This document shows, piece after piece, positions 323-49,377 of a stretch of DNA of 64,000 nucleotides. The notes beneath the pieces are model-generated. The model was not told the origin of the DNA. It saw only the letters and a list, made by a program, of their open reading frames with translations, and did no database searches. Source of the DNA: an uncultured bacterium. GTDB taxonomy: Bacteria > Verrucomicrobiota > Kiritimatiellia > CAIKKV01 > CAITUY01. A program made the position numbers and the translations under genes. Numbering within the stretch: the stretch's first letter is position 1; each line of letters starts with the position of its first letter. Location: the NCBI GenBank assembly GCA_903895695.1, contig CAITUY010000095.1, forward strand, positions 1-64,000, given 5' to 3'.

Positions 323-1815
323 AGAACACTTACGACGATATCGTTATCGGTAGCGGCGCCAGCGGGCTCACCGCCACGCTGCTGCTGGCACTGCACGGCC
401 GCAAGGTTCTGCTGCTCGAAAAAGCACCCCGGATCGGCGGCTCCCTGTGCCGGTTCCAACGGCGCGGCGTACCGTTCGACACCGGGTTCCACTTCACCGG
501 CGGACTGACCGAGCGGGGCCTCCTGAGCCGCATGCTATCCGTCCTTGGGCTCGCCGGGGCCGTGGAACCCGTGTTCATGGCGGCTAACCACACGCACCGC
601 TTCGTGTTCGAATCGGAGGGGCGCGTCTTCGACCTGCCTTGCGGCGTGGCCGAGTGGCGTCGCGCACTACTGGCCGAATTCCCCGGCGACCGGATAGCCG
701 TGGACCGCTATTTCGATCGGGTCGAAACCGTTCGCATGCACACGCCCGGCATGGATCTGAGCCGCCTCACGGAACCGGCGCGCCGGCTGGACGAGGATTC
801 CGTGAGCCTCGCCGCGGTGCTGGACGGCCTCACGGATAATGCCCTGCTCAAGGCCGTGCTGTGCGGGCTGGGCATGTGCCACGGCGTCAAGCCCTCCGAG
901 ATCTCGTTCGCCAGTCACGCCCGCGTCTGTTTCGAACTATACGAATCCACGGCCCGCCTGCGACACGGAGGAGAGTCGCTGATCGACGCCTTTGCGGACC
1001 GCTTCAAAGCCCTGGACGTGGACGTGCGCACCGGGTCCTGGATCACGGCCTGCGGCGACGTCACGGACGACCGCGTGACGCGGTTCGAACTCAATACGGG
1101 CGAAGAAGTGTCCGCCGGATCGGTCATCCTGACCATTCACCCCCGCCAGATCCTCGAACTGCTTCCGCGCGGGCACTACTCCAAGGCCTTTGCGGCGCGC
1201 GTGGAAGCGTTCGAGCCGTCGGCCGGATTCTTCACGGTGTACGGAACGCTGGACGATGGCCCCGACCCGGACTTCGGTTCAACGATCGTCTCGCTCTTTC
1301 CCTCCCTGGACTTCGAGGCAATGCTCAGCCCCGACTACCGCGGCGAGCCCGCGCTCGTGATCGTCGGCAGCCTCGACGAAGCCAACGGTGCGCCCTGCCG
1401 CGTGGTCACGGCCTTCGAACCGTCATTTTTCGAACATGTGGCGCCGTGGAAGGACTCGCTCACGGGCCGCCGTCCGCCGGGCTACGCGGCTTACAAGGCA
1501 GACCGCGTGGCGGCGATCCGCCGGCATCTCGGCCGCTACGATCGCCGCTACGAGGAGCGCCTGCGCGTGCTGGACTCGGCTTCGATCCTCACGTTCCGCG
1601 ACTACCTGCACTCGCCCGAAGGGGCGGCCTACGGAATCAAGCAGAAGGTCGGGCAATACAACTTGATCGGCAAGCTGCCAATCCGTAACTTCTTCGCCGC
1701 CGGTCAGAGTTCGCTCCTGCCGGGCCTGATGGGCGCGATGATGTCGTCGTTTGTCGTCACACGCCTGGTGCTGGGCAGGGACACGGTCAACCGCCTCACG
1801 AGTACGCCGCCATGA
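319..1815 (+). CDS. CrtI-like FAD-dependent oxidoreductase / desaturase
   Basis: Flavoprotein of the phytoene desaturase/NAD(P)H-FAD superfamily, about 498 residues. The dinucleotide-binding motif IVIGSGASG sits at residues 8-16 with an acidic end of strand 2 (LLLEK), followed by GGSLCRF and FDTGFHFTGG as in CrtI relatives. The C-terminal AAGQSSLLPGLMGAMMSS is the usual FAD-contacting tail. The first ATG in frame (532) would remove the whole FAD-binding motif, so the start must lie upstream. The only plausible one is CTG 319 with GGAGG 9 bases before it, overlapping the fabG stop. It overlaps the next gene by ATGA. Desaturation or isomerisation of an ACP-bound or lipid acyl chain is a reasonable inference; the substrate is unknown. 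Confidence 0.85.
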   Translation: MKNTYDDIVIGSGASGLTATLLLALHGRKVLLLEKAPRIGGSLCRFQRRGVPFDTGFHFTGGLTERGLLSRMLSVLGLAGAVEPVFMAANHTHRFVFESEGRVFDLPCGVAEWRRALLAEFPGDRIAVDRYFDRVETVRMHTPGMDLSRLTEPARRLDEDSVSLAAVLDGLTDNALLKAVLCGLGMCHGVKPSEISFASHARVCFELYESTARLRHGGESLIDAFADRFKALDVDVRTGSWITACGDVTDDRVTRFELNTGEEVSAGSVILTIHPRQILELLPRGHYSKAFAARVEAFEPSAGFFTVYGTLDDGPDPDFGSTIVSLFPSLDFEAMLSPDYRGEPALVIVGSLDEANGAPCRVVTAFEPSFFEHVAPWKDSLTGRRPPGYAAYKADRVAAIRRHLGRYDRRYEERLRVLDSASILTFRDYLHSPEGAAYGIKQKVGQYNLIGKLPIRNFFAAGQSSLLPGLMGAMMSSFVVTRLVLGRDTVNRLTSTPP

Positions 1816-3041
1816 AACTGAGACGAGTCGTCATCACCGGTATGGGCAGCGTGTCGCCGCTCGGGCGCGGCACGGCCGCGCTGGTCCAGGGCATCGAGGC
1901 CGGCCGTAGCGCGGTGCAGGTGATGGAGGGCTGGGAGAAGTACATCGGGCTGCGCAGCCGCGTGGGCGCGCCGGCGGAACTTAAGGACGAGAAACTCATC
2001 CCGCGCCAGAACCGACGGTCCATGGGCCGCATGAGCCTCTTTGCCGTCCAGGCGGCCCAGGACGCCCTGGCCGATGCCGGCCTGGACCCGGCCGTGGCGT
2101 CGTCCGGCCGCCTCGGTTGCATCGTGGGGTCCACGACGGGCAGCGCCATCAGCATCAGCCAGGCATTCGAGACGATGCTGCCGGACCGCGACCTGACCAA
2201 GCTCTCGTCGATGATGTTCTTCCATTGCCTGTCGCACACGGCGACCATGAACGTGGCGCAGTGCCTCAAGATCAACGGGTGCGTGATGGCGACCTCGGCC
2301 GCCTGCGCCTCCGCCTTGCACGCGCTCGGGACCGGCTACGACCTCATCCGCCTCGGCCGCCAGGATTTCATGCTGTGCGGTGGCGCTGAAGAACTGCACC
2401 CGACCGTCACCGGCTCGTTCGATGTGCTCTTCGCGACCTCCGTGAAATACAACACTACGCCCCACCTGACCCCCCGCCCGTTCGACCGCGATCGCGACGG
2501 GCTGGTATGCGGCGAAGGCAGCGGCATCCTGCTGCTCGAGGACTACGAGCATGCCGTGGCCCGCAATGCCCGCATCCACGCCGAGCTGCTCGGGTTCCAC
2601 ACGTGCAGCAGCGGCGACCACGTGAGCGAGTCCAGCCGGCCGGCCATGGTCGCCTGCATGCGCGAGGCCCTCCACGACGCCGGGCTCGAGCCGCGGCAGG
2701 CGGACTACATCAATGCCCATGCCACGGCCACGCTGCAAGGCGACAAAGAAGAGGCCGAGGCCATCCGCGAGGTGTTTGGCGACGCCGTTCCCGTGAGCAG
2801 TCTCAAGGGCTATATGGGCCATACCCTCGGCGCCTCGGCCGCCCTGGAACTGGCCGCCTCGCTCGCCGGGATGCGCAAGGGTCTGCTCTACCCGACCCGG
2901 AACCTCGACAACGTGAGCCCCGAGTGCCAGGGAATCCGCCACGTGATGGGCGCCCCCGAACGCCGCGACGCGCATGTCGTGGTAAAAAACAGTTTTGCGT
3001 TTGGCGGGATCAGCGCGGTTCTGGTATGCAGGATGCCGTGA
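1812..3041 (+). CDS. fabF: Beta-ketoacyl-ACP synthase II-type ketosynthase
   Basis: Condensing enzyme that extends ACP-bound acyl chains with malonyl-ACP. At 409 residues it has normal FabF length. The catalytic triad is complete: Cys165 in TSAACAS, His303 in NAHATAT and His337 in KGYMGHTLGAS. The N-terminus VVITGMGSVSPLG is the standard KAS II opening. It starts with an ATG overlapping the previous stop and is followed by an ACP gene 18 bases later. The ACP, ligase and LolA neighbours suggest that it belongs to a dedicated pathway rather than primary fatty acid synthesis, but the sequence alone does not separate the two. Confidence 0.95.
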   Translation: MKLRRVVITGMGSVSPLGRGTAALVQGIEAGRSAVQVMEGWEKYIGLRSRVGAPAELKDEKLIPRQNRRSMGRMSLFAVQAAQDALADAGLDPAVASSGRLGCIVGSTTGSAISISQAFETMLPDRDLTKLSSMMFFHCLSHTATMNVAQCLKINGCVMATSAACASALHALGTGYDLIRLGRQDFMLCGGAEELHPTVTGSFDVLFATSVKYNTTPHLTPRPFDRDRDGLVCGEGSGILLLEDYEHAVARNARIHAELLGFHTCSSGDHVSESSRPAMVACMREALHDAGLEPRQADYINAHATATLQGDKEEAEAIREVFGDAVPVSSLKGYMGHTLGASAALELAASLAGMRKGLLYPTRNLDNVSPECQGIRHVMGAPERRDAHVVVKNSFAFGGISAVLVCRMP

Positions 3042-3059: not shown

Positions 3060-3335
3060 ATGACCAAGGATGAAATCGTTGCTTTGACCAACCGGGTGTT
3101 CGAGGAGTCGTTCGAGATCCCGGCCGAAAAGCTGACCCCCCAGGCTCGCATCTTCGACGAGTTGGGCCTCGACAGCCTCGACATCGTGGACCTGATCGTC
3201 GCCTTGCAGAAACAGTTCAAGATCCAGATCCGCGAGGACGAACGCGTGCGCACCATCCGCACGCTGGAGGATGTCTACATGTTCATCCTGACCCTCAAGC
3301 AGGAGTCCGAGCAGGCGCGACCCGCGGGATCATGA
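3060..3335 (+). CDS. Acyl carrier protein
   Basis: Small acidic carrier protein of 91 residues, which would be phosphopantetheinylated on Ser39 in the motif DELGLDSLD. The helix that follows (IVDLIVALQKQF) is typical of ACP helix II. It carries the growing acyl chain between the ketosynthase, reductase, HotDog domain and acyltransferase encoded around it. Its stop overlaps the ATG of the acyltransferase, implying coupled translation. Family assignment is firm; it is one of two ACPs in the window and shows no sign of being the general AcpP. Confidence 0.95.
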   Translation: MTKDEIVALTNRVFEESFEIPAEKLTPQARIFDELGLDSLDIVDLIVALQKQFKIQIREDERVRTIRTLEDVYMFILTLKQESEQARPAGS

Positions 3336-4087
3336 ACGTCCTTAAGCTGATTGTCCTGAACGTCTGGTTCTATGCCCTGCTCGTCGTCTACACGCTGGTG
3401 GCGGTTCCCGCCCTGACGCTGTTCGTGGCCGTCCAGGCCCCGTTCATCCCGCATCGTCAGGCCATGCGCCTGTTCCGCAAGGCCATCCGCTGGTACGGCT
3501 TTGTCGTGATCTACATCCTCCCCTTTCCGCTCGTCCGGGTCCGTTACGAGGACCGCGCCGGCGAGGAGGGGCCCGGCCCGTACCTGATTGTTTGTAATCA
3601 CCGTTCATCGTCGGACCCTTTCCTGATGGCCTGCCTGCCGCTGCCGGAGGTCGTGCAGGTGATCAACACCTGGACCTTGCGCCTGCCCGTGTGGGGACTG
3701 GCGGCCCGCCTGGCCGGGTACCTGAGCGTCAACGACATGCCGGTCGAGACGTTCTTCGACCGCGCGGCCGGCTATCTGCGCGGGGGCGCCTCCATCGCCA
3801 CCTTCCCGGAAGGCACGCGGGGCCGAGACCGCATCATGGGGCCGTTTCATAGCACGGTATTTCGCCTGGCCCTTCAGGAAAAAGTTCCCATCCTGCCGCT
3901 CTGCATCTCCGGCAACGAACGCATTCCGCCGCGGGGCACCATGCTCCTCCACCCCGGCCGCGTCACGCTGCGGCGGCTGCCGTCCCTGACCTGGGCAGAC
4001 TACAAGGACTTGACGCCCTTTCAGTTGAAGAACAGAGTACGGGATCTGATTGGCCGCGAACTGGCCGCCATGGAGGCAACGACGTGA
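3332..4087 (+). CDS. PlsC-type 1-acyl-glycerophosphate/lyso-lipid acyltransferase
   Basis: Membrane-bound acyltransferase of the PlsC family, 251 residues. A long hydrophobic N-terminus (residues 3-38) anchors it. The HX4D catalytic motif is His90-Asp95 (NHRSSSD), and the acceptor-binding FPEGTRGRD follows. It would transfer the finished ACP- or CoA-bound chain to a glycerol or other lipid acceptor, as the acyltransferases of aryl-polyene clusters are thought to do. It overlaps both neighbours by four bases (ATGA upstream, GTGA at its 3' end), so it is part of one translational unit. The acceptor cannot be told from sequence. Confidence 0.9.
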   Translation: MNVLKLIVLNVWFYALLVVYTLVAVPALTLFVAVQAPFIPHRQAMRLFRKAIRWYGFVVIYILPFPLVRVRYEDRAGEEGPGPYLIVCNHRSSSDPFLMACLPLPEVVQVINTWTLRLPVWGLAARLAGYLSVNDMPVETFFDRAAGYLRGGASIATFPEGTRGRDRIMGPFHSTVFRLALQEKVPILPLCISGNERIPPRGTMLLHPGRVTLRRLPSLTWADYKDLTPFQLKNRVRDLIGRELAAMEATT

Positions 4088-5391
4088 GCCGCTTCAAAGG
4101 CCTTCCCGGGCTCGAATTCCAACCGCCCGAGGCGATCCATTCCGCGCAGGCACGGGTGCTGGCGAAACACGTGGCTCACTGCGCCCGGCATTCGCCCTAC
4201 TACCGCCGCCTCTTCAAGGAAGCCGGCGTTAGAGCGGCCGACATCGGACTGGACAACCTGGCCGAACTGCCCCTGACGACCAAGGCCGATTTCGCCACCC
4301 ACAATGCCGACTTCCTCGCCGTGCCGACCGCCGACATCGTCGATATCGTGTTGTCGTCGGGCACCACCGGCACACCCACGCGCGTCATGTACACCGAGCG
4401 CGACCTGCAGCGCCTGGCCTACAACGAGGAGATCTCCTTTACCGCGTGCGGGCTCACGCCTGCCGACACCGCACTCCTCACCTGCACCATGGATCGCTGT
4501 TTCATTGCCGGGCTCGCCTATTTTCTCGGCATCCGGGCCGTCGGCGCGGCCGCGATCCGCAACGGCCACGGCACCCTGGCCAGTCACGCTGGCATCATCG
4601 CATCCATCCGGCCCACCGTGCTCGTGGGCGTGCCCTCGTTCCTGCGCAAGCTCGCGGTTTACCTGAACGAGCACGGCGCCAACGCCGCCCGCACGTCGGT
4701 TCGAAAACTCGTCTGTATCGGCGAGCCGGTGCGCGGCGCCGATATGGCCCCGCTCAAGCTCGGCGCCGACCTGCGGGCGCTCTGGGGGGCCGACGTTCAT
4801 TCGACCTACGCTTCGTCGGAGTGCATCACGTCATTCTGCGAGTGCACCGCCCAGCAGGGCGGGCACCTGCACCCCGACCTGGCCATTCTGGAAATCCTCG
4901 ACGCCCGCGGCCGGCCCGTGCCGGCCGGCACGCCCGGCGAAATTGTGCTCACGCCCCTCGGCATCGAGGGCATGCCGCTGCTCCGCTTCAAGACCGACGA
5001 CATCGGTTTCATTGTCCCCGGCCCGCCCTGCTCCTGCGGCCGCACCTCGCCCCGTCTGGGCCCGATCCTCGGCCGCCAGCGGCAAATGATGAAGGTGCGA
5101 GGCACCACGCTCTACCCGCAGGCCGTATTCATCGCGCTGGACGAAATCCCGAATGCCGGCGATTACTACCTGGAAATCCGGACCGACGGCGACCTTTCCG
5201 ACGACCTCATCATCCACCTCGGCGCCCATGCGCAGCAACCGCCCGTGGCCTGGATCCGCGAACAATTGCAGGCCCGGCTGCGAATTGCGCCCACGATCGT
5301 CGTGGAGCCCGAGGAGGACGTGAAGCGCCGCGTCTACACGCCCGAATCGCGCAAACCCGTCCGCGTTCTGGACAGGAGGAATGCTCCGTGA
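4084..5391 (+). CDS. Acyl/aryl-activating AMP ligase (phenylacetate-CoA ligase-like)
   Basis: Adenylate-forming enzyme of 435 residues, the length and style of the PaaK group. The ATP-binding loop SSGTTGTPT is near residues 89-97, YASSE is the A5-type motif, and a Cys-rich segment (CSCGRTSPRLG) is characteristic of the PaaK/CapK branch. It starts at GTG 4084 overlapping plsC. It would activate a carboxylic-acid starter unit for loading on the ACP or CoA, the role given to the ligase of aryl-polyene clusters. The starter (aryl or alkyl) is not determinable here. Confidence 0.88.
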   Translation: MSRFKGLPGLEFQPPEAIHSAQARVLAKHVAHCARHSPYYRRLFKEAGVRAADIGLDNLAELPLTTKADFATHNADFLAVPTADIVDIVLSSGTTGTPTRVMYTERDLQRLAYNEEISFTACGLTPADTALLTCTMDRCFIAGLAYFLGIRAVGAAAIRNGHGTLASHAGIIASIRPTVLVGVPSFLRKLAVYLNEHGANAARTSVRKLVCIGEPVRGADMAPLKLGADLRALWGADVHSTYASSECITSFCECTAQQGGHLHPDLAILEILDARGRPVPAGTPGEIVLTPLGIEGMPLLRFKTDDIGFIVPGPPCSCGRTSPRLGPILGRQRQMMKVRGTTLYPQAVFIALDEIPNAGDYYLEIRTDGDLSDDLIIHLGAHAQQPPVAWIREQLQARLRIAPTIVVEPEEDVKRRVYTPESRKPVRVLDRRNAP

Positions 5392-6878
5392 GTTGTCACA
5401 GTCCTATGATTGGCGAGGAGTTCACGCGGGCCGATGTGGAGGAGGCCGCCCGCACCGGTCGACTGCTCTCCATGGAGATCGAGTTCAGCCTGCGGTGCAA
5501 CTACCGCTGCCAGTATTGCTATGTCGAGCAAACCGGCGATACGGCCGGCGAGATGGCGCCCGACGAAATCCGCGACGTGATCCTGCAGGCCCGGGACCTG
5601 GGCGCCCGGAAGATCATCGTGCTCGGCGGCGAGCCCATGATCTACCCGCACATCATGGACATGCTCGCTTTCATCCGCCAGCACGGCATGCATGCCGAGA
5701 TGTTCACCAACGGGACCCACGTCACGCCCGAGACCGCCCACCGGCTGTACGACCTCGGCGTGCAGGTTGTGCTGAAAATGAACAGCTTCGATGAGGCGAT
5801 CCAGGACGAGTTGGCCGGCGTCAGGGGCGCCTACCGGACCATCCAGGCGGCCTTCGACAGCCTGCGCGCTGCGGGCTACCCGGCCGACGGCCACCTCATG
5901 GCCGTCAGCACCATCATCTGCGCCCAGAACCTGCCGGAAGTCACGCGCCTGTGGCAGTGGCTCAGGGACCAGGACATCACGCCCTACTTTGAGATCATCA
6001 CCCCCCAAGGCAATGCGCGGGACCATAACGGGTTGGAAGTCGATCTGCCCACCTTGCACAAGGTCTTCGGCGAACTGTCCGAGATCGACCGCACGCGCTA
6101 CAACCACCACTGGGACCCCCAGCCGCCGCTGGTGGGCGACCGCTGCCTGCGGCACCAGTTCTCCTGCCTCGTGAGCGCGTTCGGCACCGTCCGCCCCTGC
6201 GTCGGCGTCACGCTGCCGGTCGGCAACGTGCGGGAGCAAAAACTGGCGGATATCCTGCGCGATAGCGAGATCATCGGCGACTTGCGCCGCTACAAACAGA
6301 CGATCCGCGGCCCCTGCGCGGCCTGCGAAAAAGCGTCCGTCTGCTACGGGTGCCGCGGCGCCGCCTACCAGTTGACCGGCGATTACCTGGCGTCGGACCC
6401 GTTGTGCTGGCGGAACGCCGGCCGGGAGGCCGAGATCATGACGTTGCCCGTCGAGGCCGGGAAACTGATCCCGCAGCAGGCGCCGCTCAAGGTCGCGGAC
6501 CGGCTGATGTCCGTGGGCGAACGCGTGGCCGTGGTGGAGACTGACCTCCGCACGGACAGCGTGTTCGTCCGCGCCGACGGCACGCTGGATCCGGCGGCCT
6601 ACCTCGAACTGATCGCCCAGGCCGCGGCCGCCATGAACGGGTTCCGGGCCACGCGCCGCGATAGTCCCGAGCCCGAGGGCTACCTGCTGGGGGCGCGTAA
6701 TCTCGAAATTCTGGGCCCGGCCCGCGTGGGCGACACCCTGAGCGTCCGCGTCTTCAAAGCCACCCGTTACGGCGATTTTGGCATCATCGAGGGCGCAGTC
6801 TCGCGCGGCGAAACGCTGCTCGCCAAAGGCGAGATCAAGGTGTGGCACAAGACCGGTGCGGCCGTGCCGGCGGCGTGA
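5388..6878 (+). CDS. Radical SAM/SPASM protein fused to a FabZ/ApeP-like HotDog domain
   Basis: About 496 residues in two parts. Residues 30-350 are a radical SAM enzyme: CNYRCQYC (Cys37, Cys41, Cys44) binds the SAM [4Fe-4S] cluster, VLGGEPMIYP follows, and a SPASM-like Cys-rich region (RPCVGV, CAACEKASVCYGC, DPLCW) probably holds auxiliary clusters. Residues about 360-490 form a HotDog domain: IPQQAPLKVADRL, LELIAQAAAA and GYLLGARN match the ApeP-type dehydratase pattern. The FabZ GHFP histidine motif is not seen and Gln replaces His in the opening motif, so dehydratase activity is uncertain. GTG 5388 is preferred: AGGAGG lies 8 bases upstream and the start overlaps the previous stop. An unusual fusion; the HotDog part may dock ACP-bound substrates. 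Confidence 0.85.
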   Translation: MSCHSPMIGEEFTRADVEEAARTGRLLSMEIEFSLRCNYRCQYCYVEQTGDTAGEMAPDEIRDVILQARDLGARKIIVLGGEPMIYPHIMDMLAFIRQHGMHAEMFTNGTHVTPETAHRLYDLGVQVVLKMNSFDEAIQDELAGVRGAYRTIQAAFDSLRAAGYPADGHLMAVSTIICAQNLPEVTRLWQWLRDQDITPYFEIITPQGNARDHNGLEVDLPTLHKVFGELSEIDRTRYNHHWDPQPPLVGDRCLRHQFSCLVSAFGTVRPCVGVTLPVGNVREQKLADILRDSEIIGDLRRYKQTIRGPCAACEKASVCYGCRGAAYQLTGDYLASDPLCWRNAGREAEIMTLPVEAGKLIPQQAPLKVADRLMSVGERVAVVETDLRTDSVFVRADGTLDPAAYLELIAQAAAAMNGFRATRRDSPEPEGYLLGARNLEILGPARVGDTLSVRVFKATRYGDFGIIEGAVSRGETLLAKGEIKVWHKTGAAVPAA

Positions 6879-6892
6879 GAATCGGTTGAGGG

Positions 6893-7071
6893 TGGGAGGT
6901 GGATGGTGGAAGGGTCATTAGTCATTGGTCGTCGGAGGTCGAGTGAATAACATCCACAAACAGCCAGCGTCCAGTGTCACACGTCAGAACAATCGGACCG
7001 CCCTCACTTGGGCGTTGAGCGTTCCTCCCTCCCTCCGTTCACTGTTCACTGTTTACTGTTCACTGTTCACT
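6893..7071 (+). repeat. Heptamer repeat blocks before and within the start of the LolA gene
   Basis: From 6893 to 6948 the sequence divides exactly into eight in-phase heptads of changing content (TGGGAGG, TGGATGG, TGGAAGG, GTCATTA, GTCATTG, GTCGTCG, GAGGTCG, AGTGAAT). Three more run from 6965 to 6985 (CAGCGTC, CAGTGTC, ACACGTC). A purer block GTTCACT x5, with one T for C, runs from 7037 to 7071 and encodes the hydrophobic part of the LolA leader. Confidence 0.85.
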
Positions 7072-7686
7072 TCCCTTTCCCTCACCGTCTTCGCCGCCCC
7101 CGCCACGAACGCGGCCGCCCCGCTGCTGGTCGAATTGCAGCGCAGCCTGGCCGGCACCACGAACGTTCAGACCGATTTCGTGCAGGAGAAGAACCTCGCG
7201 ATCCTCCAGCAGGCTGTCATCATCAAGGGCCGCCTGGCCGTGACGCAACCTGACCGCCTGGCCTGGCAGGTTCTGGAGCCGATCCGCTACAACCTCGTGC
7301 TGGACGGGACCACGCTGCGCCAGTGGGACGAGGCCACGGACAAGGTGCAGCAGATGTCGCTGGCAGGAAACCCTGTTTTCGGTGTCGTCGCCACCCAGCT
7401 CCGCGCCTGGTTTGCCGGCCACTTCGATGCCCTGACCAAGGATTTCGACGTTTCCATCGACGCGACTGTCTCGCCGCCCGCCATCGCCTTTGTGCCGCGC
7501 GAGGCCAGCTTCGCCGCCAAGGCTATCCGGCGCGTGACGCTCACGTTCCGCGAAGACCGACGCTACCTCCACAGCATCCTGATCGACGAGCGCAGCGGCG
7601 ACCGTACGCTGATGACCTTCACGAATACCGTTCTGAACGGCGCCGTGGACCCCACCCTGTGGGAGGTCAAGCCGCATGGCCGCTAA
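6943..7686 (+). CDS. lolA: LolA-like outer-membrane lipoprotein carrier
   Basis: Periplasmic LolA-fold protein. The mature part (from about residue 50) has the family pattern: FVQEKNLAILQQAVIIKGRL, then LAWQVLEPIRYNLVLDG and LRQWDEATDKVQQM. LolA shuttles lipoproteins to the outer membrane; LolA-like proteins also occur in aryl-polyene clusters, where they are presumed to move the lipid product. The start is uncertain. GTG 6943 has GGAGG four bases before its spacer but gives a long n-region; TTG 7015 would give a compact signal peptide without a ribosome site. Either way the hydrophobic leader core (SLFTVYCSLFTSLSL) is encoded by a GTTCACT heptamer repeat. The next gene starts inside its end, 11 bases before the stop. 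Confidence 0.82.
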   Translation: MNNIHKQPASSVTRQNNRTALTWALSVPPSLRSLFTVYCSLFTSLSLTVFAAPATNAAAPLLVELQRSLAGTTNVQTDFVQEKNLAILQQAVIIKGRLAVTQPDRLAWQVLEPIRYNLVLDGTTLRQWDEATDKVQQMSLAGNPVFGVVATQLRAWFAGHFDALTKDFDVSIDATVSPPAIAFVPREASFAAKAIRRVTLTFREDRRYLHSILIDERSGDRTLMTFTNTVLNGAVDPTLWEVKPHGR

Positions 7687-8446
7687 CCGATTCCTCGGCG
7701 AATTGGCGGTTCTTCAGGTAGGGCGACGGCGTCCTCGCCGCGCCGAGCCTGTCGCGGTCCTGTCACGGCGGGGCGGGGACGCCCACGCCCTACCTGGCCT
7801 TGGCGCTGCCTGGCGACTCTGCCTCCTTCTCCTGCTCGCCTCGTGCCGGACGGTGGCGCCACCCGCCACGGCCCCGGCGCCCAACCTCGCACCGCTGCCC
7901 GAGCGCTTCACGGCGCGGCAGTCCGTGGTATTTGAATTCCGGCCGCACTGGTGGTGGCCGACCATCCGGCTCACGGCGTTGGGTTACGCCTCGGTGAACC
8001 GGCCGGCGGACGCCTACACGGTGGTGTGCCTGACTCCGCTGGGCGTGAAACTCTTCGACGTGTCCCGCACGAATGGGCAAAACCAGGCCAATGTGGCACT
8101 CCCCTTGCCCGGCGACGCCGCAAAGGCGGGACAGGCCATCGGCGACGATATCGCCGCGCTCTACCTCGGCCTCACCCCGCCCCCGGCCGCAGTGCCCAGC
8201 CGTCACGGCGACCGATTGACCTTCCGTCATAGGGAGGCTGGCCAAACAACGGAGTGGGTCTTTTCCACCGCGACAGGTCAACTCCATAGCAAGACTGTGA
8301 CGGGCGATGGCGTCTGCCGCGCGCTCACTTTTAGCGACTACCACGCCGTGGGCGGGACGTCGTATCCCACTACGCTGACCCTTCAAAACCGCCGCTTCGG
8401 CTACCGCATCATCGTCCGCATCCAAGACCTGCAACCCGTGCCGTGA
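7676..8446 (+). CDS. DUF3261-like outer-membrane lipoprotein
   Basis: Predicted lipoprotein: a hydrophobic stretch ends in LLLLLASC, a lipobox with the acylated Cys at residue 57. The mature part (RQSVVFEFRPHWWW, LGYASVNRP, PLGVKLFDV, YPTTLTLQNRRFGYRIIV) resembles the DUF3261/ApeN-type lipoproteins that accompany LolA-like genes in aryl-polyene clusters. ATG 7676 has GGGAGG nine bases upstream and overlaps the LolA gene. About 27 residues ahead of the signal peptide are encoded by a palindromic repeat (7716-7795), so the leader is unusually long. No ATG, GTG or TTG lies between the repeat and the signal peptide. Its stop overlaps a GTG at 8443. Confidence 0.75.
   Translation: MAANRFLGELAVLQVGRRRPRRAEPVAVLSRRGGDAHALPGLGAAWRLCLLLLLASCRTVAPPATAPAPNLAPLPERFTARQSVVFEFRPHWWWPTIRLTALGYASVNRPADAYTVVCLTPLGVKLFDVSRTNGQNQANVALPLPGDAAKAGQAIGDDIAALYLGLTPPPAAVPSRHGDRLTFRHREAGQTTEWVFSTATGQLHSKTVTGDGVCRALTFSDYHAVGGTSYPTTLTLQNRRFGYRIIVRIQDLQPVP
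7716..7795. repeat. 80-bp palindrome-ended repeat, copy A
   Basis: Begins AGGTAGGGCG and ends CGCCCTACCT, a perfect 10-bp terminal inverted repeat. It matches the reverse complement of 35624-35702: the first 35 bases are identical and most of the rest agrees. It lies in frame between the start codon and the signal peptide of the DUF3261-like lipoprotein. Confidence 0.9.
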
Positions 8447-8463
8447 CCCTACCAGGAACGCCC

Positions 8464-11043
8464 ATGGCCGATAAAGAAGCCGCCGCCCGCATCAAAATCA
8501 ACAAGCTGCTCGAAGCCGCCGGCTGGCGCTTTTTCGCGGACGCCCACGGCCAGGCCAACATCCAACTCGAACCCAGCGTTTCGTTGAAGGCGCAGGACCT
8601 CGATGCGTTGGGCGCAAACTTCGAGAAGGCGACCAAAGGCTTTATCGATTTCCTGTTGCTCAACGCCAAGGGCTTCCCATTCATTGTTCTCGAAGCCAAG
8701 GCCGAAAACAAAAGCCCACTCGCGGGCAAGGAACAGGCACGCAAGTACGCCAAGGCGCAGAACTGCCGGTTCGTCATTCTCTCCAACGGCAACCTGCACT
8801 ATTTCTGGGATCTCGAACGCGGCAATCCCTATCTCATCACCGTGTTCCCGACGCCGGAGTCCGTTGCCGGCTATCAGAAGAACACGCCCGACCCCCAGCG
8901 CCTGATCGATGAGGTGATCGCGGACGACTACATCGTACTCACTCAGCGGCCCGGCTACGCCGCGGAGGCCGCCTGGAAAAACGAAACCGAGCGCCCCGGT
9001 TTTATCGCGACGAACAGCCTCCGCTTCCTCCGCGACTACCAGAAGAAGGCCATCACCGCGGTTCAACAGTCCGTCGCCAACGGGCACGACCGCTTTCTCC
9101 TCGAAATGGCCACCGGCACCGGCAAGACCCTCGTGTCGGCCGCCCTCATCAAACTGTTTCTCCGCACCGGCAATGCCCGCCGCGTGCTTTTCCTCGTGGA
9201 CCGGTTGGAACTCGAAGTCCAGGCGTGGAAGGCGTTCAAGAAGGTTCTCGCCAACGATTACAAGTGCGTCATCTACAAGGAGAATCGTGACGACTGGCGC
9301 CACGCCGAGATCGTCGTCACCACCGTCCAGTCGCTGCTCTTCAACAACAAGTACCGACAACTCTTCTCGCCCACAGATTTCGACCTTGTGATATCGGATG
9401 AGGCCCACCGTTCCATCGGCGGCAACGCCCGCGCCGTATTCGACTACTTTGTCGGCTACAAACTCGGCCTCACGGCCACGCCCCGCGATTACCTCAAGAA
9501 ATTCAACCCGCACAAGCCCACGGCCGCCAGCGACCCGCGCGAGTTCGAACGCCGCCTGCTGCTCGACACCTATCGCACCTTCGGCTGCGACAACGGCCAA
9601 CCCACCTTCCGCTACTCCCTGCTCGACGGCGTGAAAGACGGGTTCCTGGTCAATCCCATCGTCGTAGATGCCCGCAGCGAGGTCACGACCCAGCTCCTGT
9701 CGGACAAGGGCTTTGTCGTCGAATTCAAGGATGACGACGGCGACGACCAGACCGAGACCTACAAGCAGCGGGAGTTCGAGAAACGCTTCTTCTCGGACGC
9801 CACCAACCAGCTCTTCTGCAAGACCTTCCTAGAAAATGCCCTGCGCGATCCTATCAGCGGCGAGATCGGCAAATCCATCGTCTTTGCCGCCACCCAGAAA
9901 CACGCCGCCAAACTCACGCAGATTCTGAATCTGATGGCCGACAAAATGTTCCCCGGCAAATACCAATCCGACTTCGCCGTGCAGGTCACCTCGCAGGTCG
10001 ACGGCGCCCAGCAGCTCACGATCAATTTCACCAACAACAACCTGCTCGGTTCCGCCAACTTCATCCCTGCCTACAAGACCAGCAAGGCCCGCGTCTGCGT
10101 CACCGTCGGCATGATGACCACCGGCTACGACTGCCCGGACATCCTCAACCTCGGCCTGTTTCGCCCGATCTTCTCGCCCACCGACTTCATCCAGATCAAG
10201 GGCCGCGGCACCCGACCGCACGATTTCCGCGAGCAACTCTTTGACGAGAGCCATGGAGGGCCACGCTTCGTCGTGGCCGTAACTGGCGGACGCGACGGAG
10301 CGCGTCCCTCCACAGAAAAGCAAGCCTTCAAGCTCTTCGACTTCTTTGCGAACTGCGAGTATTTCGAGGAGAAGTACAACTACGACCAGGTCATCAAACT
10401 GCCCAAACCCAGGACCAAAGGCGGCGAAGGCGGCGGCACAGGCCCTGTCGTGACTGCCGGCGCCTACGAACACATCGGCCCGGACATCATCGCCACGATG
10501 AAGGAAGCCGCCGTCGGCCTCGAAGGCATGAAAATCGACCGCATGTTCTACGAGAAGTTCGAGGACACGGTGCGGAAGAACGATTTCATCGCCGCCAGCG
10601 TCGAGGCCGGCCAGTGGGACCGCGTGATCGCCTATGTGAACAAGGAGCTTTTCGACAAGCCTGCCGAGTTCTACACCCTCGACAAGCTTCGCAAAGCCGC
10701 CGCCGTGGACCGCCGCATCGGGCTGCGTGAAATCCTGGAGAAGATCTTCGGCCTCATCCCGCGCTACAAGTCCAAGGACGAGTTGCTGGAAGAGGAGTTC
10801 TCCAAGTTCGTGGCCGACTACAAGCCCGAGGAGGCCGAGGCCCTCCCGGCCATCAAGACCTTCTTCAAGGCCTACGTCACCAGCGACCAGATCCGCCACA
10901 TCATCGAGTCCGGCCAATTCACCGACCTGGCGACCAATCCGACCTTCTCCACCCGCGACTTCCGCGCCGTGCCCGCGAAGTACCGGGCCTTGATTCCCGA
11001 GTACGTGAAGGACTACGTCTCGTTGAACTTGTTTGCGGCATAG
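8464..11043 (+). CDS. hsdR: Type I restriction enzyme R subunit (HsdR)
   Basis: Translocase-nuclease subunit of a type I restriction system, about 859 residues. The N-terminus has a PD-ExK-type nuclease core (FIDFLLLNAKGFPFIVLEAKA, Glu-x-Lys near residue 77). The helicase motor follows: Walker A ATGTGKT at about 216, DEAH at 312 (SDEAHRS), LTATPRDYL, and motif VI QIKGRGTRP. The C-terminal part resembles the EcoEI-type R C-terminal domain. ATG 8464 (AGGA upstream) is preferred to GTG 8443, which overlaps the preceding lipoprotein. A 59-bp palindromic repeat is inserted in frame at 10254-10312, in what should be a surface loop after motif VI, without breaking the frame. Confidence 0.95.
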   Translation: MADKEAAARIKINKLLEAAGWRFFADAHGQANIQLEPSVSLKAQDLDALGANFEKATKGFIDFLLLNAKGFPFIVLEAKAENKSPLAGKEQARKYAKAQNCRFVILSNGNLHYFWDLERGNPYLITVFPTPESVAGYQKNTPDPQRLIDEVIADDYIVLTQRPGYAAEAAWKNETERPGFIATNSLRFLRDYQKKAITAVQQSVANGHDRFLLEMATGTGKTLVSAALIKLFLRTGNARRVLFLVDRLELEVQAWKAFKKVLANDYKCVIYKENRDDWRHAEIVVTTVQSLLFNNKYRQLFSPTDFDLVISDEAHRSIGGNARAVFDYFVGYKLGLTATPRDYLKKFNPHKPTAASDPREFERRLLLDTYRTFGCDNGQPTFRYSLLDGVKDGFLVNPIVVDARSEVTTQLLSDKGFVVEFKDDDGDDQTETYKQREFEKRFFSDATNQLFCKTFLENALRDPISGEIGKSIVFAATQKHAAKLTQILNLMADKMFPGKYQSDFAVQVTSQVDGAQQLTINFTNNNLLGSANFIPAYKTSKARVCVTVGMMTTGYDCPDILNLGLFRPIFSPTDFIQIKGRGTRPHDFREQLFDESHGGPRFVVAVTGGRDGARPSTEKQAFKLFDFFANCEYFEEKYNYDQVIKLPKPRTKGGEGGGTGPVVTAGAYEHIGPDIIATMKEAAVGLEGMKIDRMFYEKFEDTVRKNDFIAASVEAGQWDRVIAYVNKELFDKPAEFYTLDKLRKAAAVDRRIGLREILEKIFGLIPRYKSKDELLEEEFSKFVADYKPEEAEALPAIKTFFKAYVTSDQIRHIIESGQFTDLATNPTFSTRDFRAVPAKYRALIPEYVKDYVSLNLFAA
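10254..10312. repeat. 59-bp palindromic element inserted in frame in hsdR
   Basis: Terminal inverted repeats TGGAGGG and CCCTCCA enclose two hairpins, GGCCACG/CGTGGCC with loop cttcgt and GGACGCG/CGCGTCC with loop acggag. It encodes about 19 residues (GGPRFVVAVTGGRDGARPS) between LFDESH and TEKQAF of HsdR. Confidence 0.85.
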
Positions 11044-11055
11044 GGAGAACGACGC

Positions 11056-11787
11056 ATGGCAAAACTCAGGCCCAGTGGCGGATACCGCGACCTGCGCAGC
11101 TTTCAGGCTGCCACCATCATCTACGATGCCACCTACTGGTTCAGCGAACGCTTCCTGGAGCCGCGTTCGCGCATGAGCGATCAAATGGTTCAGGCCGCGC
11201 GCAGCGGTCGACAGAACATCGCCGAGGGCAGCCGGGCAGCCGCCACCTCATCACAGACCGAACTGCGCCTGGTCAACGTCGCCCGTTCCAGCCTGGAAGA
11301 ACTGCTGCTCGACTACGAAGATTTCCTGCGGCATCGCCACCTGCGCCAATGGAAGCCCGACGACCCCGAAGCCCTGGCCGTCCGCCACATCGGGCAGAAT
11401 CGGTCCGATCAGTCCGATCCGGCGGATCCCGCCGCCCACTATGCGCTCTACGCCGCCTGGCTCGATCACGATGACCCCGCCATTCGGGCGAATGCGTTGC
11501 TGTGCCTTATCAACCAGGCCAACACCTTGCTCGACCGGCAGATCGAGGCGCTGGAGGCGCAGTTCATTGAAGAGGGCGGCTACAGCGAACAACTCGCCAC
11601 CGCCCGCCTCGCCGAGCGCAATCGCAAGAGGACCGGCCCGCCGCCCGAGTCGCCCGCGACCATTCCCCCCTGCCCCGAGTGCGGCAAGGCCATGGTCCTG
11701 CGCACCGCCCAGAAGGGCAAGAGTGCCGGCAAACAATTCTGGGGCTGCTCCGGCTACCCCGACTGCAAAGGTTTAGTGGATGTTTGA
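11056..11787 (+). CDS. Four-helix-bundle protein with C-terminal topoisomerase-type zinc ribbon
   Basis: About 243 residues. The N-terminal 100 residues are a four-helix bundle of the S23/23S-rRNA-intervening-sequence type (MSDQMVQAARSGRQNIAEGS, ELRLVNVARSSLEELLLDYE). A longer helical middle follows. The C-terminus is a C4 zinc ribbon of the topoisomerase I kind (CPECGKAMVL, FWGCSGYPDCKGL). Such four-helix-bundle proteins often sit inside restriction-modification operons, and this one lies 12 bases after hsdR and just before hsdM. Its role is unknown; a scaffold or nucleic-acid-binding partner is possible. A nonamer repeat at 11399-11430 encodes RSDQSDPADP at the junction between the parts. 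Confidence 0.85.
   Translation: MAKLRPSGGYRDLRSFQAATIIYDATYWFSERFLEPRSRMSDQMVQAARSGRQNIAEGSRAAATSSQTELRLVNVARSSLEELLLDYEDFLRHRHLRQWKPDDPEALAVRHIGQNRSDQSDPADPAAHYALYAAWLDHDDPAIRANALLCLINQANTLLDRQIEALEAQFIEEGGYSEQLATARLAERNRKRTGPPPESPATIPPCPECGKAMVLRTAQKGKSAGKQFWGCSGYPDCKGLVDV
11399..11430. repeat. Nonamer repeat ATCNGNCNG, copy 1 (coding)
   Basis: Three in-phase nonamers (ATCGGTCCG, ATCAGTCCG, ATCCGGCGG) plus a partial fourth. They are in frame inside the four-helix-bundle/zinc-ribbon gene and encode Ser-Asp/Ala-Asp-Pro repeats. Confidence 0.8.
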
Positions 11788-11790
11788 GAG

Positions 11791-11822
11791 ATCTGCCCGA
11801 TCCGTCCGATCCGACGGATCAC
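11791..11822. repeat. Nonamer repeat ATCNGNCNG, copy 2 (intergenic)
   Basis: ATCTGCCCG, ATCCGTCCG, ATCCGACGG and a partial fourth unit fill the short gap between the zinc-ribbon gene and hsdM. They end just before the AAGGA ribosome site of hsdM. Confidence 0.8.
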
Positions 11823-11833
11823 AAAGGAAGCCC

Positions 11834-14353
11834 ATGCTCGACACCGACACCAAACGCCGCATCGACACCGCTCGCGATATTCTCGTGGGCAAGGTGCCCG
11901 ACCCAAAGTCGCAGGTCGAGCAGATCACGATCGCGCTCATTTACAAGTTCATGGACGACATGGATGCCGAATCGGAGGAGCTCGGCGGCAAGCGCAAGTT
12001 CTTCACCAAAGAGTTCGCCCGCTACGGGTGGGCCAAACTCTTGCGCGCCGGCCTGGGCGGACACGAAATGCTCGGCCTCTACGCCGAAGGCATCACGAAG
12101 ATGCCCGAGAACCCCGGCATTCCGCCGCTCTTTCGCGACATCTTCAAGAATGCCTACCTGCCTTACCGCGATCCCGAAACGCTCAAGACCTTTCTCAAGA
12201 TCATCGACGAATTCAGCTACGATCACAGCGAGCGTCTCGGCGATGCCTTCGAGTATCTGCTCTCCGTGCTCGGCTCCCAGGGCGATGCCGGCCAGTTTCG
12301 AACCCCGCGCCATATCATCGATTTCATGGTCGAAATCGTTGACCCGAAAAAGGGCGAGGTGATTCTCGATCCCGCCTGCGGCACGGCCGGGTTTCTCATC
12401 TCGGCTTATAAACACATCCTACGCGCGAACAATCCGGCAGATCCCTCCAATCTGTCAGATCGCTCGGTCAAACCCCTCACACCCGACGAAAAGGGTCGCC
12501 TGGCCCAGAACTTCAAGGGCTACGACATCTCGCCCGACATGGTGCGCCTGTCGCTGGTGAACCTGTATCTGCACGGGTTCGCCGCCCCGCACATTTACGA
12601 ATACGACACGCTCACTTCCGAGGAGCGCTGGAACGAGTTCGCCGATGTCATTCTCGCCAACCCGCCGTTCATGTCCCCGAAAGGCGGCATCAAGCCGCAC
12701 AAACGCTTTTCGATCCAGGCCAAGCGCAGCGAAGTGCTGTTTGTCGACTACATGGCCGAGCACCTCACGCCCAACGGCCGCGCCGCGATCATTGTGCCCG
12801 AAGGCATCATCTTCCAGAGCCAGACCGCCTACAAAGAACTGCGGAGAATGCTGGTCGAAAAGTCCCTGGTCGCCGTGGTTTCCCTCCCCGCCGGCTGCTT
12901 CAATCCGTATTCCGGGGTCAAGACTTCCATCCTCATCCTCGACAAATCTCGCGCCCGACAAAGCGACACCATCGCCTTCTTCAAGGTCGAGAACGACGGC
13001 TACGGCCTCGGCGCCCAACGCCGCGCCTTCGACAAAAACGACCTGCCCGCCGCGCTGGAGGCAATTAGGAATTACGAATTGGGAATTACGAATGACGACG
13101 AAGCTGCGTCTGGCGATCTCGTAATTCGTAATTCTCAATTCCTAATTGTGCCGAAATCGAAGATTTCGGCAAACGGCGACTACAACCTCAACGGCGAGCG
13201 GTATCGGGAGGGGGGTGAGAGAAGTTCGAAATTTCCATGGGCGACGTTGGGCGACATTGCGCTTGGGAAACCGCAATATGGGTCAGGAGCGAGCAAGGTG
13301 AACTACAATGGCGCAGTTCGCTATATTCGCATCACCGATTTAACCGACCGCGGCGAGTTGAAAGAGACTGATCCTGTTTCGCCTTCGACCATCGAAGAAG
13401 ACTGCTACCTGCAACAAGGCGACTTGCTTATCGCCCGCTCGGGTTCGGTAGGCCGCGCCTACCTTCACCAAAAGAAATCGGGCAGTTTCCAATACGCAGG
13501 TTATCTCATCCGCTTCCGCCTTGATCTGGCGAAAGCGATTCCCATGTATGTCTTCCAGATCACGCAGTCGCCTCATTGGGATGATTGGATTACCCAGCAG
13601 TCCAAGACGGGAACGATTTCGAACATCAATGCACAGGAATACTCGGCGTTCCGGTTCCCCCTCCCGCCCCTCGACATCCAAATGGAAATCGTGACTGAGA
13701 TCGAGGGCTACCAGAAAGTCATCAACGGCGCCCGCGCCGTCCTCGACAACTACCGCCCCCACATCCCCATCCACCCCGACTGGCCGATGGTGGAATTAGG
13801 CGAAGCCTGTGACGTGCGCGACGGCACGCATGACAGTCCGAAATACGTTCTCGAAGGTTTTCCCCTCGTCACATCGAAGAACCTGAAGAATGGCTACATT
13901 GACTTCACCGAAGTGAATCTGATCAGTCGCGAAGATCTCGACGCGATTAACAAGCGCTCTAAGGTCGATGCAGGCGACCTATTGATGCCAATGATAGGCA
14001 CGATTGGGAGTCCGGTGGTGGCGGATGCATCCCGCGAGTACGCCGTGAAGAACGTCGCCCTGATCAAGTTCCCCCAGGGATGCCAAGTGGACAACTGGTA
14101 TCTCAAGGCTGTTCTCGATTCCGCGGCAATGCAAAGCCATTTCGACCGGCAGGCCAGTGGCTCGACTCAGAAGTTTATCCCACTCGGCTTCATCCGGAAA
14201 CTTTCCATCCCCCTCCCGCCCCTCGCCACGCAACAAGCGATCGTCGCAGAGATTGAAGCCGAGCAAGCGCTGGTCGCCGCCAACCGCGACCTGATCGCCC
14301 GGTTCGAGAAGAAGATACAGGCGACGCTGGAGAGAATTTGGAATTGCGAATGA
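11834..14353 (+). CDS. hsdM: Type I restriction-modification HsdM-HsdS fusion
   Basis: About 839 residues combining modification and specificity subunits. The N-terminal half is an N6-adenine methyltransferase of HsdM type: helical HsdM_N, then the SAM motif LDPACGTAGF and catalytic NPPF (ILANPPFMSPKGG). From about residue 460 two target-recognition regions follow, each ending in the HsdS-type FPLPPLDIQMEIV or IPLPPLATQQAIVAEIE and a coiled-coil spacer. Its substrate is an adenine in a bipartite site defined by the two recognition domains. ATG 11834 has AAGGAAG upstream; an earlier ATG at 11780 would translate the nonamer repeat. Two repeats lie in frame: nonamers at 12432-12467 and an inverted heptamer repeat at 13062-13150 in the M-S linker. 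The stop is also inside heptamers. Confidence 0.93.
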   Translation: MLDTDTKRRIDTARDILVGKVPDPKSQVEQITIALIYKFMDDMDAESEELGGKRKFFTKEFARYGWAKLLRAGLGGHEMLGLYAEGITKMPENPGIPPLFRDIFKNAYLPYRDPETLKTFLKIIDEFSYDHSERLGDAFEYLLSVLGSQGDAGQFRTPRHIIDFMVEIVDPKKGEVILDPACGTAGFLISAYKHILRANNPADPSNLSDRSVKPLTPDEKGRLAQNFKGYDISPDMVRLSLVNLYLHGFAAPHIYEYDTLTSEERWNEFADVILANPPFMSPKGGIKPHKRFSIQAKRSEVLFVDYMAEHLTPNGRAAIIVPEGIIFQSQTAYKELRRMLVEKSLVAVVSLPAGCFNPYSGVKTSILILDKSRARQSDTIAFFKVENDGYGLGAQRRAFDKNDLPAALEAIRNYELGITNDDEAASGDLVIRNSQFLIVPKSKISANGDYNLNGERYREGGERSSKFPWATLGDIALGKPQYGSGASKVNYNGAVRYIRITDLTDRGELKETDPVSPSTIEEDCYLQQGDLLIARSGSVGRAYLHQKKSGSFQYAGYLIRFRLDLAKAIPMYVFQITQSPHWDDWITQQSKTGTISNINAQEYSAFRFPLPPLDIQMEIVTEIEGYQKVINGARAVLDNYRPHIPIHPDWPMVELGEACDVRDGTHDSPKYVLEGFPLVTSKNLKNGYIDFTEVNLISREDLDAINKRSKVDAGDLLMPMIGTIGSPVVADASREYAVKNVALIKFPQGCQVDNWYLKAVLDSAAMQSHFDRQASGSTQKFIPLGFIRKLSIPLPPLATQQAIVAEIEAEQALVAANRDLIARFEKKIQATLERIWNCE
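12432..12467. repeat. Nonamer repeat ATCNGNCNG, copy 3 (coding, in hsdM)
   Basis: Four in-phase nonamers (ATCCGGCAG, ATCCCTCCA, ATCTGTCAG, ATCGCTCGG) are in frame shortly after methyltransferase motif I. They encode NPADPSNLSDRS in what is probably a loop. Confidence 0.8.
13062..13150. repeat. Inverted heptamer repeat in the HsdM-HsdS linker
   Basis: The left arm is built on CAATTAGGAATTACGAATT and the right arm is its approximate reverse complement (CGTAATTCTCAATTCCTAATTG), about 28 bases apart. Units such as GAATTAC recur every seven bases. The block stays in frame and joins the methyltransferase to the first recognition domain. Confidence 0.85.
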
Positions 14354-49076: not shown

Positions 49077-49086
49077 ACTTCCCGTC

Positions 49087-49377
49087 CTACTTCTTTGCCT
49101 GCTGCGTTTCGTAGACGTAGGTAGCCAGCGTGTTGATCGAACGGAAGATCTCGCGGCCTTTTTCCATGTCTTTGACTTCGACGCTGAAATTCCGCTGGAG
49201 GATCACCACGATTTCGACGGCGTCGAGCGAGTCCAGGCCCAAGCCTTCGCCGAACAGGGCGTCGTCGTCCTTGATCTGGTCGGGGGTGACGCCTTCCATG
49301 TTCAAGTTACTGACCAGCAGTTCCTTGAGCTTGGCGCGGATCTTGACCAGTTCCTGCTCGCGATCTTGTCCCTGCAT
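49087..49377 (-). CDS. Acyl carrier protein
   Basis: About 96 residues; the phosphopantetheine Ser50 lies in GEGLGLDSLDAVEI. Helices on both sides are of ACP type. It starts the KS/CLF mini-operon and ends 10 bases before the ketosynthase. Different enough from the ACP at 3060 that it should serve a separate module or step. Confidence 0.93.
   Translation of the reverse strand: MQGQDREQELVKIRAKLKELLVSNLNMEGVTPDQIKDDDALFGEGLGLDSLDAVEIVVILQRNFSVEVKDMEKGREIFRSINTLATYVYETQQAKK

Follow-up and report, generated by a model that had tools for sequence, protein, structure and literature searches.

A radical SAM/SPASM enzyme fused to a predicted ApeP-type half of a split dehydratase in an aryl-polyene-like gene cluster of an uncultured Kiritimatiellia bacterium

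According to the available text of PMC8041823, the dehydratase ApeI/ApeP is a heterodimer whose two chains share one active site. In the known complex (PDB 6qsr) both chains have the HotDog fold, the ApeP half carries a Glu-Gln motif, the ApeI half carries the His of a GHFP motif, and the two are separate genes of one cluster type. These traits recur in the system described here, which was found in a 64,000-nucleotide stretch of contig CAITUY010000095.1 (assembly GCA_903895695.1; hereafter the window) from an uncultured Kiritimatiellia bacterium, and in its relatives. The difference is that the ApeP-like half is here carried at the C-terminal end of a radical SAM/SPASM enzyme, which is encoded at 5388-6878 (+). 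In addition, the loop His of chain 6qsr_B (DGHLP) is not conserved in the fusion, where position 399 is variable, and most ApeI-type partners have Gln where chain 6qsr_A has Asp.

Fusion of one half of the split dehydratase to another enzyme of the pathway has been described in Acinetobacter baumannii, where ApeI is joined to ApeH (PMC8041823, available text). There, the partner is an acyl-acyl carrier protein (ACP) synthetase and the fused half is ApeI, whereas here the ApeP half is joined to a radical enzyme. Another likeness is seen with the cluster of Kuste3343 (PMC2649909 and PMC4790861, available text): three related loci (L115, L116, L119; L and G numbers denote loci and genomes) have a radical SAM/SPASM enzyme of 47-50% identity between a ligase and a TIGR04072-type enzyme. 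However, that radical enzyme is unfused, the dehydratase of these loci is a complete FabZ, and the likeness to Kuste3343 is by gene order alone. Flexirubin and aryl polyene clusters share with the present one the ligase, FabG, LolA, MMPL, DUF3261, ketosynthase, ACP, thioesterase, GT2 and PlsC types, but differ by the three radical SAM enzymes and the CrtI-like enzyme found here, and the NCBIfam flexirubin models stay under their cut-offs. The aryl-polyene-like setting suggested in a first-pass annotation of the window is borne out. Both parts of the protein, fusions of half-dehydratases, and radical SAM enzymes at this cluster place, discussed as ladderane candidates, are already known. A literature search of titles and abstracts found no radical SAM-ApeP fusion, complementary partner or loss pattern; most subscription journals were outside the search, and absence from print is not shown. 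A similar search on TIGR04072 found no paper on such a fusion.

The gene is one intact frame of 496 residues in which the radical SAM and SPASM parts (31-340) precede the HotDog domain (353-489), as the first-pass annotation had read it, and both domains are recovered by Pfam or fold. The radical SAM core, residues 31-166 (5478-5885, +; PF04055), contains the CxxxCxxC motif at C37/C41/C44. Among 79 aligned fusion members, C41 and C44 are kept in all and C37 in 78, with one gap. The SPASM part, residues 253-340 (6144-6407, +; PF13186 at 253-313), has seven cysteines (C253, C271, C310, C313, C319, C322 and C340), each kept in 79/79. By this motif and these cysteines the protein belongs to the radical SAM/SPASM enzymes. 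No curated functional subfamily was reached in NCBIfam (best AhbD, 141 of 500 bits, and NirJ2, 127 of 500); the nearest named radical families are AhbD, NirJ and PqqE, all far below cut-off.

Homologues of the whole protein numbered 1987 at E <= 1e-10 among 7997 scored. Both domains are present in 120/120 homologues among the matches listed and in all 79 aligned members, and neighbourhood work on related genome loci, the best 80 of 311, revealed a recurrent cluster around the gene. By the names of the metagenome-assembled genomes, the fusion occurs in Nitrospirae, Omnitrophota, Deltaproteobacteria, Kiritimatiellae, Verrucomicrobia, Lentisphaerae, Brocadiaceae and others; the locus L071 (Pontiellaceae bacterium B12227) does not bear the label of a metagenome-assembled genome. 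In its source, one homologue (P0064) has a name that combines a radical SAM enzyme with a 'predicted hotdog family 3-hydroxylacyl-ACP' protein, so the fusion architecture was already visible in annotation. In two others (P0061 and P0077, 727 and 720 residues) the frame continues past the fusion into a LolA domain; LolA is of a periplasmic type, here joined to a cytosolic enzyme, and the frame may be real or joined.

The HotDog domain (6444-6854, +) is closest to ApeP in both fold and sequence, as the first-pass annotation had suspected from its motifs. E407 (codon 6606-6608, +), the predicted catalytic Glu, and Q411 are present in 79/79 aligned members, and residues 388-404 have no conserved His; the catalytic Glu is thus kept and the GHF His of the FabZ type is absent. 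The same pattern is seen more widely: Glu and Gln are kept in 103 of 104 ApeP-profile matches, the exception being the ordinary FabZ of L120. Within the 18 residues preceding the Glu, a His occurs at some position in 24/104, as GHF in one, an ordinary FabZ. The FabZ site requires the His of GHFP and the Glu of LEAMAQ, and both motifs are present in the complete FabZs of L116 and L119. A self-sufficient dehydratase was therefore ruled out for the HotDog part by its missing catalytic His. The earlier suggestion that it might replace a dehydratase has to be changed accordingly: it is the predicted half of a heterodimer, and the His half (ApeI-type) is a separate gene in clusters of this type. Pfam PF22817 gave no match on the window protein at E <= 1, so the claim of ApeP family membership rests on structure and relatives; a family member from L040 is matched (29 bits, cut-off 27), and matches to a newer version are precomputed for the 120 homologues among the matches listed. 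The HotDog part is best read as the predicted Glu-bearing ApeP-type half of a split ApeI:ApeP 3-hydroxyacyl-ACP dehydratase.

The ApeI-type protein keeps the residue that the fusion lacks. His is present in 38/38 aligned proteins, and the Glu position is Gln in 29 and Glu in 3. A wider scan with 62 ApeI-profile matches gave His in 62/62 and Glu in 7/62, namely L079, L083, L084 and L086 of fused clusters, L119 and L120 (ordinary FabZ of unfused clusters), and L138. By profile, the best structure for this partner is 6qsr_A (ApeI), and its predicted model is a HotDog; the best 50 Foldseek rows of the model are FabZ and FabA chains without 6qsr_A, so the ApeI assignment rests on the profile match. 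Support for the pairing comes from L139 (9747-10550), where both halves occur in one 267-residue protein, with an ApeP match at 1-135 (112 bits) bearing the Glu and an ApeI match at 154-265 (69 bits) bearing the His. We infer that the fused HotDog and the ApeI-type chain would pair, as ApeI and ApeP do in aryl polyene synthesis, into a heterodimer that has one active site.

The two genes also occur together. In 194 genomes of the window's phylum, the fusion profile (E <= 1e-60) matches 14, of which 13 include the HotDog part (G185, whose match begins at a contig edge, is counted among them) and one, G148, has the radical part only. The ApeI type (E <= 1e-20) is found in 12/194, 11 of which are fusion genomes and the twelfth is G079. 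The overlap gives a Fisher p of 3.4e-15, which is indicative only, since the genes are mostly operonic and the genomes related, so that independence is overstated. In the two other fusion genomes, G083 and G191, the ApeI-type genes are weaker (75 and 66 bits) and lie beside MMPL, so that an ApeI-type gene occurs in 13/13 fusion genomes of this sample, two of them below the cut-off. The window's own genome has its His-bearing partner on another contig (C194:53243-53638, -; 142.2 bits). In a genome-wide test of 50 fusion genomes, representing 50 of the 80 loci, ApeI reached at least 100 bits in 44. A claim that the ApeI and ApeP sets coincide 14/14 in the 194 genomes was dropped, because a looser search found further genomes of that sample with ApeP outside the fusion.

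These genomes show that the dehydratase half also occurs alone. In G079, a stand-alone ApeP of 138 residues lies between ligase and LolA, and an ApeI-type partner is present; the radical enzyme and the B12-binding radical SAM enzyme are not matched in the 19 kb around this cluster, and genome-wide neither the fusion profile (E <= 1e-60) nor TIGR04072 (E <= 1e-40) gives a match. TIGR04072 was found in all five other genomes searched together with G079, G148 being below cut-off. In the looser search with the HotDog part, 53/387 genomes matched, 20 of them in frames under 300 residues. Sixteen of these 20 loci were taken, G079 included, and G577, G683, G656 and G569 were left out, their matches lying at contig starts. 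Fifteen of the sixteen encode separate ApePs and one (L139) the ApeP-ApeI protein; ten have an ApeI-profile match, and one (L139) has B12 radical enzymes. The radical SAM/SPASM enzyme of the fusion family lies near 0/16, L149 having only an unrelated weak radical SAM match of 19 bits. The dehydratase half thus persists without the radical half, with the reserve that L135, L137 and L142 are shortened by contig ends and that seven of the 16 loci come from one genus.

Unfused radical enzymes are common as well, with 342-384 residues in the 120 listed of 1087 matches. Sixteen of their loci were compared (L115-L117 and L119-L131), of which L131 is distant (36% identity) and L122, L127 and L129 are short contigs; the ACP-fused L118 was set apart and a fused match of G282 was left out. 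A complete FabZ with both His and Glu occurs in five (L115, L116, L119, L120 and L121), the L115 copy having no in-frame start in the stretch read, and a profile scan of the loci found a split ApeI in 0/16. In a tree of the radical part (67 rows), the 27 fused rows form one clade (SH-aLRT 100), in which five unfused rows (L126-L130) are nested; three changes are needed in all, including an ACP fusion. This fits one fusion event with later losses, but is not proof of it. L126-L130 show neither ligase nor ApeI at the locus. In the ACP fusion (P0123, L118:9404-10801), a radical SAM/SPASM homologue continues into an acyl carrier domain at residues 393-448 (E 8.4e-10) that has a DSL serine. Since each half, ApeP as well as the radical enzyme, also occurs without the other, the two activities are separable in nature.

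We propose, with a probability of roughly one half, that the fusion tethers a radical tailoring enzyme, through its ApeP half, to the ACP-bound chains of an anaerobic pathway resembling those of aryl polyenes and flexirubins. The best-supported step is that the HotDog half would pair with ApeI and dehydrate 3-hydroxyacyl-ACP in a conjugated-chain pathway; delivery of the radical half to that carrier-bound chain is likely, though less certain than this pairing. In such a scheme, the HotDog half and ApeI would act at every round of an anaerobic type II polyene pathway, and the unsaturated chain would then be passed, on the same ACP, to the radical SAM site of the fusion. There, a 5'-deoxyadenosyl radical would take a hydrogen and the SPASM clusters would accept an electron, so that oxidative tailoring independent of O2 would be achieved jointly with the cluster's two radical SAM enzymes that bind B12. 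A carrier-bound chain is favoured as the radical substrate because of the fusion itself, its conservation across phyla and the separate ACP fusion. The acyl-ACP link proposed in the first-pass annotation therefore pointed in the right direction, as seen in the split-dehydratase pairing and the one ACP-fused homologue, while presentation to the radical SAM site is carried by our interpretation. A bolder version is speculative and, in our judgement, improbable: the radical SAM enzyme would be built into the elongation dehydratase, each nascent polyenoyl-ACP being dehydrated in the heterodimeric HotDog site and then radically rearranged before the next round or release. Ring-bearing or otherwise radically tailored lipids would then arise in anaerobes outside anammox, and the target of the unfused Kuste3343-type enzyme in the ladderane-candidate cluster would be explained.

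Several observations weigh against the tethering proposal. The four ApeI-type partners of fused clusters that keep Glu as well as His may be able to dehydrate without the fused half, and the ApeI of 6qsr itself (chain 6qsr_A) has Asp at the Glu position. The nearest named radical families, AhbD, NirJ and PqqE, all with scores far below cut-off, act on tetrapyrroles or peptides. Among the 120 matches listed, the ACP fusion is represented by one protein cluster, found on six contigs. L054 and L057 have the fusion with few cluster genes nearby. A strong ApeI was not found by profile search in 6/50 fusion genomes (G272, G273, G282, G286, G307 and G308, all at most 54 bits), of which G282 has an ApeI fragment of 48 residues. 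Among 44 loci with at least 6.5 kb downstream, a local ApeI is absent in seven (L009, L025, L038, L056, L074, L082 and L085). ApeI lies elsewhere in the genomes of the first four, with 118 to 164 bits, so that the co-occurrence is not merely operonic; in L038 and L057 it is on a different contig from the fusion, its position lying beyond the length of the fusion's contig. Finally, L117 (8094-11792) combines ligase, B12-radical SAM enzyme and unfused radical enzyme, and no ketosynthase or ACP match was found in 20 kb, which would suit a role on a starter or small molecule.

That role is the alternative that survives best, and we consider it possible, although tentative: the radical SAM/SPASM enzyme, the FlxY/PaaK-like ligase and the B12 radical SAM enzymes would make and activate an unusual starter, and the HotDog half would merely hold the enzyme on the synthase. 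Besides L117, it is favoured by the position of the ligase, which adjoins the radical enzyme in the majority of fused clusters and in several unfused ones, and by the absence of an ammonia-lyase or other starter-making enzyme among the annotated recurrent families. However, L126-L129 and L130 keep ACP, ketosynthase, acyltransferase and radical enzyme and show no ligase (L127 and L129 being contigs of 7-8 kb), and G079 keeps the ligase with no match to the fusion profile, to TIGR04072 or, in 19 kb, to the B12 enzyme.

It is unlikely that the HotDog domain is a catalytically silent docking module, with an ApeI-type homodimer performing the dehydration and the fusion only targeting the enzyme. 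The four partners with both His and Glu would allow such a homodimer, but the Glu is absent from 55/62 ApeI-profile matches, E407 and Q411 are retained in all 79 aligned fusion members and in nearly all ApeP-profile matches, and L139 joins both halves.

A third alternative concerns ladderanes, a link that the first-pass annotation did not contain. Unfused relatives of the radical enzyme sit in gene clusters for which production of the ladderane lipids of anammox bacteria is suspected but unproven. The gene order kuste3352-3335 of the candidate cluster (listed in PMC4790861 and discussed in PMC2649909, available text) is reproduced in L115, L116 and L119, where the ligase takes the place of kuste3344, the radical enzyme that of kuste3343 and the TIGR04072-type enzyme that of kuste3342. 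L115 and L116 come from HZS_alpha-positive genomes, and the L119 genome has no HZS_alpha match. The B12 enzyme of L115 scores 412.2 bits with TIGR04072 (cut-off 360), and the TIGR04072-type enzyme of the window's own genome (C194) scores 604.6 bits, which links its cluster to the ladderane type. The fusion might act on a polyene through a radical cascade and in this way help to make ring-bearing lipids, ladderane-like or other; in favour are the components shared with the anammox candidate cluster, namely ligase, radical enzyme, TIGR04072 'rSAM_ladder_B12', CrtI-like enzyme, MMPL, ketosynthase, ACP and FabG. We find this highly doubtful. In the class of G194, 75 genomes were searched with the fusion profile and 11 match it: three fused, seven unfused and one (G266) with the ACP fusion. 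A close orthologue of the radical enzyme occurs in only 5/42 HZS_alpha-positive genomes of this class; some of these 42, G262 and G263 among them, carry many HZS_alpha copies and may not be anammox, and in some genomes the first-look candidates were partly scored. If ladderanes are a product of every anammox bacterium, a radical gene of such patchy distribution is unlikely to be required for them. Rattray et al. (PMC2649909, available text) report Desulfotalea psychrophila to be without ladderanes despite synteny, and the available text of PMC2649909 and PMC4790861 names no substrate for the radical SAM enzymes encoded in ladderane-type lipid clusters.

That two genes were joined by a frameshift or by faulty assembly can be practically dismissed, given both parts in every listed homologue and aligned member and no point found in its favour.

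In the window, the fusion lies in the first half of the cluster, from a FabG fragment to DUF3261, all on the forward strand. A C-terminal fragment of a FabG/FlxB-like ketoreductase (2-322, +), cut by the contig start, is 85% identical to residues 140-244 of the L038 gene. It is followed by a CrtI/CrtD-like FAD oxidoreductase (331-1815, +), whose frame is open to the contig edge with the start codon not determined; this is 68% identical to the L038 gene, and TIGR02733 gives 39.8 bits for the 532-1815 part, far below cut-off. Next are a FabF-type ketosynthase (1812-3041, +; PF00109/PF02801; PRK09116 424 bits, below the cut-off of 470), an ACP (3060-3335, +; 84% to the family member of L010, the family representative matching PF00550), a PlsC-type acyltransferase (3332-4087, +; PF01553) and the FlxY/PaaK-like AMP-forming ligase (4084-5391, +; NF053551). 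Downstream of the fusion lie a LolA-like carrier (6925-7686, +; PF03548), its start probably over-called, and a DUF3261/LolB-like protein (7676-8446, +) with PF11659 at E 0.0023, below cut-off, and a family match; MMPL is not between them. None of the NCBIfam flexirubin equivalog models passes its cut-off: FlxY gives 435.8 of 520 bits and LolA2_flexi 89.6 of 125 in the window, and FlxB gives 294.9 of 340 for the L047 relative.

Clustering of neighbour genes at the 80 loci gave the recurrent order FabG, CrtI-like, ketosynthase, ACP, PlsC, FlxY/PaaK-like ligase, fusion, LolA, MMPL, DUF3261, ApeI-like, 4HBT thioesterase, ketosynthase, ketosynthase-like, B12-radical SAM, TIGR04072 B12-radical SAM and GT2. 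At the 44 loci with long downstream sequence, MMPL and LolA are found in 43 each, the TIGR04072-type enzyme in 38, the ApeI type and the second B12 enzyme in 37 each, the ligase in 34 and the CrtI-like enzyme in 32. Minor or shadow-frame neighbour families are F16 (whose representative matches PagL), F18-F22 and F25. The other half of the cluster is found on contig C194 of the same genome, with GT2, TIGR04072, second B12 enzyme, ketosynthase-like, ketosynthase, thioesterase and ApeI-type genes. An N-terminal FabG fragment lies near the end of C194 (L092:14353-14526), and the C-terminal one opens the window (C95); the two half-clusters may be divergent neighbours. Directly after DUF3261, at 8443-14353 (+), the window has large frames that by eye, without a family search, resemble type I restriction-modification genes, at a place where many relatives carry on with the polyene cluster. 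A second ketosynthase pair with an ACP is seen at 46849-49377 (-); a class I/II aminotransferase and a protein that carries a nucleoside diphosphate kinase domain are encoded nearby.

For the anammox lineages, the patchiness of the orthologue bears on whether the radical gene can be required for ladderanes. The radical enzyme is joined to a dehydratase half in one clade and, in a different lineage, to an ACP. Both fusions indicate carrier-bound acyl chains, which gives the radical SAM/SPASM enzymes of these clusters a testable substrate class.

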